64,000 nucleotides of DNA, from the NCBI RefSeq assembly GCF_033807715.1, contig NC_084606.1, forward strand, positions 37,315,401-37,379,400, read 5' to 3'. The notes beneath the pieces were generated by a model that did not search any database, was not told where the DNA came from, and saw only the letters and a list, made by a program, of their open reading frames with translations. Both the position numbers and the translations under genes were made by a program. This document shows, piece by piece, positions 6,601-9,600 of this stretch; the first letter of the stretch is position 1; every line of letters starts with the position of its first letter. The stretch comes from Cololabis saira. Taxonomy: Eukaryota; Chordata; Actinopteri; Beloniformes; Belonidae.

Positions 6601-9600
6601 AGTTGTTTCAGCCTAGCAGTGGCTTTGCTTTTCACTTGGTTAGCTCAGGGCTATTGTGTTGGTGCTCAACAGGCTAGTCAGTAGCCTGTGGTGTGGTAGC
6701 CTTGTGTGGCTAGTCCAGTGGGGACGCTGGTGTATAGTGTGTAATTGTGTTGTGTGTTTGGTGTCCTGGCGAGCATGGCCGCCTTCGACCTGGTTGTGTT
6801 TGTGGCTAACCCCACTCTAAGCTTGCTAGAAGCATGTCGAAGGGAGGACCTGCATGCTATTGCTAAACATTATGGCATTCCTGTCTCCACTGCGCTCTGT
6901 AAGGGAGAGCTTAGGGATGCTGTTTTAAAGGGGTTGGTGGACAAGGGTGTTCACCTGCCTCCAGTGGCTATTGGGGACCAAGGGGAGGGGGCATCTGTTG
7001 TGGCAGAGCCCTCGGGTGCGAGCTGCTCTGTCTCTCAGGGTAGAGAAGGGGCTGAGGAGGGGCGCTCCGCTCCCAGCGAACAGGGGAACAGCAGTGATGG
7101 TGAGGGGGAAGAGAAGCCGTACACGATGCCACGCTTTGACCCCCTCTCTGCTGGGTCTACTCCTGGCTCTAGGCTAGATGCCCGGGTGAAGCTGCGTATT
7201 GCTCGTCTCCAGATAGAGGCTCAGGACAGGAAAGAGGAGCGTGAGGCTCAGGACAGGAAAGAGGAGCGTGAGCTTAAGCTACAGGTGAAGAAGTTGGAGT
7301 TGGAAGCAGAGACTGCGGTTAGGATGCGTCAGCTGGAGCTGCAGGGCAGTGAGACCCCTGTCAGCGCTCCTGCTGTAGGTACATAGTCTCCTGCATACCA
7401 CCCTCCCGGCTTCGACATCAGTAGGCATATTTCTCTAGTTCCTGCCTTCCGAGAGTCTGAAGTAGAGTCATACTTTGGTGCGTTTGAGCGCATAGCTACT
7501 GCCTTACTGGCCAGCTGACGTGTGGGCCATCCTGCTGCAGTGTAAGTTGACTGGGAAGGCTCAGGAGGCGTGTGCTTCCCTCTCTGTGGAAGACAGCCTT
7601 TTGTATGAGAAGGTGAAAGGCGCTATACTACGTGTGTACGAGCTAGTCCCAGAAGCCTACCGACAGCGGTTCCGCAACCTTAGTAAGACCTCCGGTCAGA
7701 CATACTCTGACTTTGCTAGGGAGAAAGGGATTCTTTTTGACCGTTGGTGTGCTGCCTGTAAGGCTGATGACTATGTGTCTGTGCGTGAGCTCATGCTGTT
7801 GGAGGAGTTTAAGGCCTGTGTTCCAGAGCGTACGGTGGTCTATCTCAATGAACAGAGGGTAGCTACTCTACAGCAAGCAGCCTCCTTGGCTGACGAGTTC
7901 ACCCTCACACACAAGGCAGTGCTCACTAAACGTGAGTCTTGCCCCTGTGAGTTGTCTGAGAGGGCCACTGATAAGCAGGTCCCTCATGTCCCAGCCTCCC
8001 GGTTGAGGGTGAGGACAGATAGGCAGTGTTTCTTCTGCCACAAGCCTGGCCACCTGGTAGCAGAGTGCTTAGCTTTGAAACGCAAGCAGCAACTCCTCAG
8101 CTCTCAGAGCCGGAGGCCCATGCCATATGGACAGGTGCAGTCACGGGTCAACTCTGGGCTGGCAAAGCTCAGAGGTGACGCCTTATCTCACTGTCCAGCA
8201 CGACCCAGAAGCATGAGGAGTTTGGATGGAGGAGGGAGACCTCAAGCTGGCCAGCTGCCTCGATATGGACACAGCCTCCTGGAGAAAGCCAGAGCCAAGA
8301 TCCGCAACCTAGAGAATGTCATCGAGTCCCAGCAGAACCATGTGGAGGAGCTACAAGAAACGTCAGAACGGTTAACGGAGGACCTGGAGAAGAAGAAGAC
8401 AGAGTATGAGGAGAGACTCCTACAGGACCAGCAACATCACACCTCCACACTAAAGTCGCAAATCAACAGCAACGTGTCAATGATCAAACTGCAGAAGCAG
8501 CTGACTGACAGGTCCAACACCGTGACGGAGCTGGAGGGTCGATTTCTGCAACTACAAGAGGCTCAGCAAACATTGAAGGCCAGTCATGATGTAGCAATTG
8601 AAAAGGGGAACGAGCTGTCGGCTCAGTTGAAAGATGAGCGGCTGAAGAGTTTGGAGCTGAAGAAGCAGTTGCAGAGCACCAACATCACCAAGATCCAGGT
8701 GGAGCAGTTGCAGATTGCTGAGCTGGAACAGAAGCAGCACCTGGAGGAGCTGAACAACCGCCTGAAGTTATTCAGCAGAGAGAATGATTACAGTGTGCCT
8801 GAACTCACAGAGGCCCTGCTGCTTGTTAAAAAGCATAAATCCCAGGAGAATGGAGACCTGGGGTTCATGGCAGAGATAGAGGTGAGCAGCAGTCAGGAGA
8901 GCTCTGTCAGAGAGCTGCAAGCTGCTCACGCTGAAACCATCCAAGAGCTGGGGAAGACCAGAAACCTGCTGAACATGGAGAGCCAGATCAGCAAAGACTA
9001 CAAGGTGGAGCTGGAACCTACACTCCAAAAGATGAGCAGGGACAAAGCTGAGTATGAACAGCAGCTGAAACAGCAGGCTCAGCTGCTGGATGTGAGGGCA
9101 GCAAAGATCACCAAGCTGGAAGGTCAGCTCAGAAACATTGTTTATGGCACCAAGGCCTACGCATTCAAACCAAACCTCCAAGCTGAAGATAACGTTGTGG
9201 CTGACGCGCTGTCCCGTGGGTGAGACATTTATGGCCCAGTAACAAACCCGGAGGGGTTTGTTTTTATGGGGGGGGTGTTACGGCCCTGTGGCCTCTGTGT
9301 CTGTTTGTGTGTGTGGTTGCTCTGCTCTGCTCTGTATCTTCCCAGGTCCCGCCCCCTGCCTTCCCACTCATTGATCACACCTGCAGCCATGATTGGGTGT
9401 GGCCAGCTATAAAAACCTGGGGAGAGCTGCAGTTCCCTGCTCTGTGTGGGCCTTTGTGTGTGACGCAGCCTGGTGTGTGGCAGGTTTCTCCAGGCTGCTG
9501 TGGTTGAAGTCTGGCAGACCGGCTGATCGGCTCTCCTAGTGGGGGGGAGCCCGCTTTATGTTGTTTTCCCTTTGTTTGTTAGTTCTTAATAAATGCGCCA

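Follow-up and report, generated by a model that had tools for sequence, protein, structure and literature searches.

A retrotransposon family of Cololabis saira carrying a spliced segment of the host gene RPGRIP1L in place of pol

The stretch of DNA analysed here, referred to as the window, comprises 64,000 nucleotides of the Pacific saury Cololabis saira (RefSeq assembly GCF_033807715.1, contig NC_084606.1, positions 37,315,401 to 37,379,400 of the forward strand), and positions are those of the window unless stated otherwise. At 5695-9693 it contains a long terminal repeat (LTR) element of 3,999 bp with the 5-bp target duplication CCCCA on both sides, in which a spliced piece of the host cilium gene RPGRIP1L occupies the place of the pol genes. 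Between the LTRs lie a leader, gag, the captured segment and the end of RNase H; protease, reverse transcriptase (RT) and integrase are absent. A first-pass annotation had noticed a zinc knuckle ending at about 8070, an open coiled-coil frame of about 1.1 kb and a terminal NVVADALSRG, and all three lie where it placed them. The features of the element are as follows.

5690-5694 (left copy) and 9694-9698 (right copy), unstranded: target-site duplication CCCCA, from comparison of the flanks
5695-6114, + strand: 5' LTR, TGTTACGG...ACGTAACA, from repeat alignment with the 3' LTR
6119-6136, + strand: primer-binding site, presumably of proline-tRNA type, from the sequence; adjoins the 5' LTR
6775-8082, + strand: gag, with SCAN domain (Pfam) and CCHC zinc knuckle (sequence pattern)
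8083-9192, + strand: captured segment of spliced RPGRIP1L mRNA, covering native residues 142-593 except for 83, from protein and DNA alignment
8085-8093, + strand: microhomology of the 5' junction, 9 nt, AGCAGCAAC, common to uncaptured gag and a native RPGRIP1L exon
After 8210, 8310, 8454, 8560, 8707, 8779, 8830, 9004 and 9122: exon joins in the captured segment, computed from native exon ends
8712-8723, + strand: two losses inside the captured segment (6 nt and 243 nt), from alignment to the native gene
9187-9192, + strand: microhomology of the 3' junction, AGACAA in the native gene and in uncaptured elements, with one substitution in the window copy
9193-9223, + strand: last RNase H codons (NVVADALSRG end) and stop; the same end is present in uncaptured elements
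9266-9275, + strand: polypurine tract, from the sequence, just before the 3' LTR
9276-9693, + strand: 3' LTR, from repeat alignment with the 5' LTR

The LTR pair of the window copy shows 5 or 6 mismatches over 412 aligned sites. A sequence similar to the primer-binding site, which we take to belong to proline tRNA, follows the 5' LTR in four other copies. The SCAN domain of the window gag was detected with Pfam (E 4.6e-11), while the CCHC knuckle is visible as a pattern in the sequence and falls below the Pfam cut-off. This gag is broken by one in-frame stop and one frameshift. The stop codon of the RNase H end (9221-9223) is followed by 52 bases before the 3' LTR, leaving no room for env.

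The identity of the captured segment was established by a protein search with the part at 8252-9190, which gave 353 proteins above the cut-off. Among the best 120, which were inspected, the first matches were to the RPGRIP1L product, ‘protein fantom’, of C. saira itself (E 2e-155) and of Xenentodon cancila (E 4e-140), with other fishes next, in agreement with the earlier proposal and not with an origin from gag, pol or an unrelated coiled coil. The BLASTP match to RPGRIP1L starts near 8083. The segment spans native residues 142 to 593 and, as had been predicted, stops just short of the C2 domains, the first of which begins nine residues further on at residue 602. Pfam found no RPGRIP1L domain in the window open reading frame, as is expected since the C2 domains fall outside the capture, and a search of solved structures with the segment returned three matches, at E 0.35 or worse. 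Native residues 357-437 are missing from the protein alignment; by DNA alignment the losses are of 6 and 243 nt, or 83 residues in two steps. When residues were polarised over 368 sites, 34 united the element with the saury gene against that of the needlefish and 8 united element and needlefish against saury. This split suggests that the capture most likely happened on the saury lineage.

The native RPGRIP1L gene is intact on another contig of the same assembly, and our model of it agrees with C. saira protein fantom (P0001) at 552/552 translated residues. Within the captured interval the native gene has 11 introns, every one of them GT-AG, of 88 to 7,126 bases. The window copy lacks nine of them exactly, the other two falling within the 243-nt deletion. 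These intron-free exon joins indicate that the template was spliced RNA, and the suggestion that a spliced host mRNA had come to replace protease, RT and integrase, with no introns left at RPGRIP1L positions, is thereby upheld. If instead genomic DNA had been captured, or a chromosome rearranged, and the copies spread by segmental duplication, this would explain that there are multiple copies and nothing else; the absence of all introns of the interval and the exact exon joins rule it out, the flanks differ between copies and the target duplications are short, and we regard the chance of such an origin as negligible. The 243-nt loss has both ends inside exons, in a repeated CTGGA(A/G)CAG that lies in two different exons. 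Alternative splicing was considered as its source and excluded, since the gap ends within exons and in repeats. Two isoforms from other fishes (P0093 and P0106) skip approximately residues 423-454, which overlaps the gap but is a different stretch.

The joints of the captured segment can be compared with copies of the same family that hold no capture. At the 5' joint the uncaptured gag (12/12 copies shown) and the native exon share the 9-nt word AGCAGCAAC, and in captured copies the sequence is of gag type before this word and of RPGRIP1L type after it. At the 3' joint the 6-nt word AGACAA is common to the native gene and to the uncaptured elements (13/13 shown). Both joints are present in all six captured copies, described below, save for single-base differences and three missing bases in two copies. 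Shared words of 9 and 6 nt at the joints are characteristic of reverse transcription with two switches of template. A different route to an intronless insert would be a processed RPGRIP1L pseudogene, made by a long interspersed nuclear element (LINE), that landed inside an existing element from which pol was deleted later, and an RT-bearing LINE frame is indeed present in the window. The joints, however, have neither a poly(A) tract nor a target duplication, both ends of the insert are internal to the coding sequence, and at each joint there is microhomology to the relatives, in gag or at the RNase H end; several independent steps would also be needed, and this route seems very improbable.

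A search of the assembly (1.146 Gb) with the captured segment, in which all 10 first-look candidates were scored, matched 19 genomic pieces: one in the window, 10 in five other copies and 8 of the native gene. Sibling copies with the same junctions, which the first-pass annotation had proposed to look for, thus exist. Each of the five has two LTRs, leader, gag, capture and RNase H end, some of them damaged: L013 is without the leader end and about 415 nt of gag, and L014, frameshifted near the gag start only, is without parts of its 5' LTR and leader. Of the six captured copies, four have target duplications of 5 bp and one has a duplication of 4 bp; the sixth lies within an AT repeat. The two LTRs of a copy are identical in three of the six, and the remaining three pairs show 2, 4 (over 329 sites) and 5 differences; the identical pairs indicate recent mobility of the captured family, presumably in trans. 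The exact word TATAAAA occurs in the window 3' LTR (9408-9414; corresponding site in the 5' LTR, 5828-5836) and in none of the other 32 of 33 LTRs compared from 18 copies; copies with identical LTR pairs are plainly recent although the word is confined to that one LTR.

The gag-capture fusion is preserved as an unbroken frame of 619 codons, from gag start to end, in two of the six copies (L015 and L016), and the other four, including that in the window, are broken in gag. The LTR pairs of L015 and L016 are identical, and 834 nt of the native stretch, most of the insert, are missing from both. In these two copies gag may be retained as the insert becomes shorter. The three large losses (243, 201 and 834 nt relative to the native gene) all end in repeats of 8-10 nt, with one mismatch between the repeats in two of the three cases, and none ends at an exon boundary.

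With gag as the query, 39 genomic matches were obtained, of which 20 at an identity of at least 96% comprise the six captured copies and 14 others. These 14 uncaptured relatives were fetched, two of them being partial, and where they have the gag part corresponding to 7401-8080 it is 95-97% identical to that of the window. Eight of them have 3,473-3,474 bases between the end of gag and the end of RNase H, where the captured copies hold the insert, and in four there is one unbroken gag-pol frame of 1,612-1,614 codons. The gene order in the copy examined for domains is SCAN, integrase, RT, RNase H; integrase also precedes RT in a related fish protein (P0236), the window copy itself having no pol. 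This order is typical of Gmr1 elements. On the basis of its SCAN-bearing gag and the gene order of its relative, the window element appears to be a Gmr1-type Ty3/gypsy element. A SCAN domain is present in over half of frog Gmr elements, according to the portion of PMC4131045 that concerns them. Among the uncaptured copies with both LTRs (n=10), seven pairs have no mismatch (two of these with gap columns), two have one and one has nine. Such near-identity of the LTR pairs indicates that the family is young. The pair with 9 mismatches belongs to L026 (C8:43322300-43332200), which is uncaptured, damaged and older. For four of the six captured copies no uncaptured element matches the 3' tail more closely than L026 does (97.6-98.8%), and L026 is possibly near the donor lineage.

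Selection on the two parts of the fusion was estimated from the ratio of non-synonymous to synonymous differences per site (pN/pS). For gag, pooled over the six captured copies, this was 0.42 (0.28-0.63), and in nine uncaptured copies 0.23 (0.14-0.40), five of the 14 having been dropped for rearranged or truncated parts; gag thus appears to be under purifying selection. The capture gave 0.72 (0.44-1.28) among captured copies, which is not distinguishable from 1, and this part seems to evolve near-neutrally. The earlier remark that the frame had been kept open is true of the segment but is no sign of selection on the insert, and four of the six copies, the window copy included, are broken in gag. 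The same figures bear on whether the Gag-RPGRIP1L fusion is a domesticated gene with a function for the host. Two copies with the unbroken frame and a gag pN/pS below 1 could be cited for domestication; but six copies scattered through the genome, each with a target site of its own and LTRs that resemble each other, show the behaviour of a mobile element, the insert ratio is indistinguishable from 1, 20 residue changes fall on the element side (window insert) against 8 on the native side (368 sites), gag is broken in most copies, and no such fusion was found among the best 120 of 347 relatives of the gag end. A host gene of this kind is therefore highly unlikely.

The fused coiled coil could alternatively be of use to the element itself, for example by directing Gag to the ciliary base or the centrosome, or through interference with pol-bearing relatives. 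Consistent with this, the frame is open in two copies and six of the seven insert indels keep the frame, being multiples of three when the trimmed 3' end is set aside (binomial 0.007 against an expectation of one third). Native repeat pairs, however, are themselves in codon phase in 60% (6- and 7-mers) to 72% (43/60 exact 8-mers) of cases, and in 74 of 103 for 10-mers with one mismatch, so that in-frame losses are largely expected without selection; as proof of selection they were dropped, and as evidence they are weak at best. In addition, both copies with an open frame have lost most of the insert. A benefit to the element is accordingly unlikely, and it is about as doubtful that the fusion is a working protein whose coiled coil moves Gag assembly (to the centrosome, the ciliary base or in sperm) or helps to outcompete pol-bearing relatives. 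Were this true, a captured host segment would have become an asset of a still-multiplying vertebrate retrotransposon. The captured segment is most likely a passenger.

Taken together, we consider the window element to be non-autonomous and gene-transducing, to belong to a young Ty3/gypsy family of Gmr1 type and to have been made by template switching onto RPGRIP1L mRNA, with a probability of roughly 0.94. A spliced RPGRIP1L mRNA would have been packaged alongside the element RNA. During minus-strand synthesis RT would first have copied the end of the LTR and the final RNase H codons and then, at AGACAA, have switched to the RPGRIP1L mRNA; after about 1.35 kb of coding sequence it would have returned to gag at AGCAGCAAC, an order of steps suggested by the anatomy of the element. 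The whole of pol would thereby have been replaced, with the frame staying open by chance. The resulting element would have preserved its LTRs, primer site, leader, gag and polypurine tract, and copies of it now occupy at least six sites. Because the captured copies have no enzymes of their own, helpers would have to act in trans, and the pol-bearing relatives probably supply the enzymes. Further polymerase jumps between short coiled-coil repeats may then have shortened the insert in sublineages.

The gag trees are in keeping with a single origin, the captured copies forming one group both with full gag (15 rows, support 1.000) and with a shorter part of gag (18 rows, support 0.888). Several points nevertheless weigh against so simple an account. 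At the 5' joint of the window copy two bases next to the shared 9 nt are of native type, which points to an imperfect switch or to a later base change. The LTR and leader trees place damaged uncaptured copies among the captured ones, L026 in both and L038 in the LTR tree (captured copies, L026 and L038 grouping at 0.981; captured copies and L026 in the leader tree at 0.719), a likely sign of exchange among elements or of a lineage close to the donor. The shared losses of 201 and 9 nt imply a grouping at odds with the weakly supported branching of the gag tree. The low gag pN/pS could derive in part from time spent in, or exchange with, pol-bearing copies. Mobilisation in trans is deduced from the missing pol and the recent LTR pairs of what are genomic copies alone. 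One capture event would nonetheless be enough, if some exchange between elements or a near-donor lineage is allowed for.

Other features of the window lie outside the element. The LINE mentioned above (49189-53034, + strand) has an unbroken frame of 1,281 codons with endonuclease and RT domains. Frames with PARP14-like KH and macro domains are present at 24348-26399 and 17952-18437 (both - strand), and 4820-5380 (- strand) is perhaps a third PARP14-like frame, its macro-domain look being judged by eye alone; the element may be part of, or adjoin, a cluster of PARP14-like genes. Just upstream of the element is a 50-bp tandem array (4005-4854), most copies of which are 99% alike, and at 11239-12786 inverted repeats of 220 bp, 97% complementary, enclose frames resembling Tc1-type transposase by eye.

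One assembly contains the donor and the uncaptured relatives together with both switch points and six insertions, of which three have identical LTR pairs. It is this that allows a direct reading of where the templates were switched, of what became of the insert and of the reliance on helpers. The element shares with non-autonomous LTR elements the lack of its own protease, RT and integrase and the presence of LTRs, primer site and polypurine tract. A full-text literature search, judged by titles and with subscription papers mostly outside it, found no such vertebrate family and no capture of RPGRIP1L; this negative is a weak sign of novelty. In acute transforming retroviruses Gag is fused to captured spliced host sequence, pol is lost and a helper is needed. 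The parallel with them that the first-pass annotation drew holds as regards the Gag fusion, the spliced host sequence in place of pol and the need for a helper, but the saury element is a Gmr1-type Ty3/gypsy retrotransposon and not a retrovirus, without env, oncogene or sign of infection, and is known from genomic copies alone. The case suggests that oncovirus-like elements which transduce genes need no infectious virus in order to originate and multiply in a vertebrate genome. Such elements carry gene pieces that could become new fusion genes.

The best-known plant case is maize Bs1, described in the relevant section of PMC13317346 as an LTR element with transduced pieces of cellular genes forming a hybrid gene. 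It resembles the saury element as an LTR element with a transduced cellular gene, but has pieces of three genes in a plant, whereas the present case is a vertebrate, Gmr1-type element with one. In the diamondback moth, Pxyfem consists of Masc retrocopies joined to LTR-element gag sequence, and in the part of PMC9674220 that deals with them the LTRs are not identifiable. Here too a spliced copy of a host gene is joined to gag, but the moth copies are in tandem and make silencing RNAs, whereas the saury elements are complete and have been dispersed by transposition; where copies are worn, as in the moth, the LTRs or one of the joints cannot be made out. Capture of an SGNH hydrolase gene by a Helitron in platyfish, as the title cited in PMC7599744 has it, likewise concerns a fish gene captured and multiplied by a mobile element, there a DNA element and here one that uses reverse transcription. 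The closest known process is LTR-mediated retroposition, in which template switching is driven by microsimilarity and of which copies are reported in mosquito, zebrafish and chicken (Tan et al. 2016, as cited in passages of PMC5408686). In that process, as those passages and PMC9674220 outline it, a partial copy of a host mRNA lies within LTR-element sequence with microsimilarity at the switch points, and the saury element agrees with it in its intronless mRNA copy, its 9- and 6-nt microhomologies and its flanking LTRs and target duplication. The claim that nothing of the kind had been described therefore stands for a vertebrate family of this sort, within the search made, but not for the process, which was already reported in animals including zebrafish. 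In contrast to the cases of Tan et al. (2016) as the citing papers give them, the chimera here is a multi-copy family with an in-frame Gag fusion, and donor gene, uncaptured relatives and both joints occur in one assembly. LTR-mediated gene capture is thus already known in animals, and what is new is a multiplying vertebrate family with its donor, its likely helpers and its joints in one genome.
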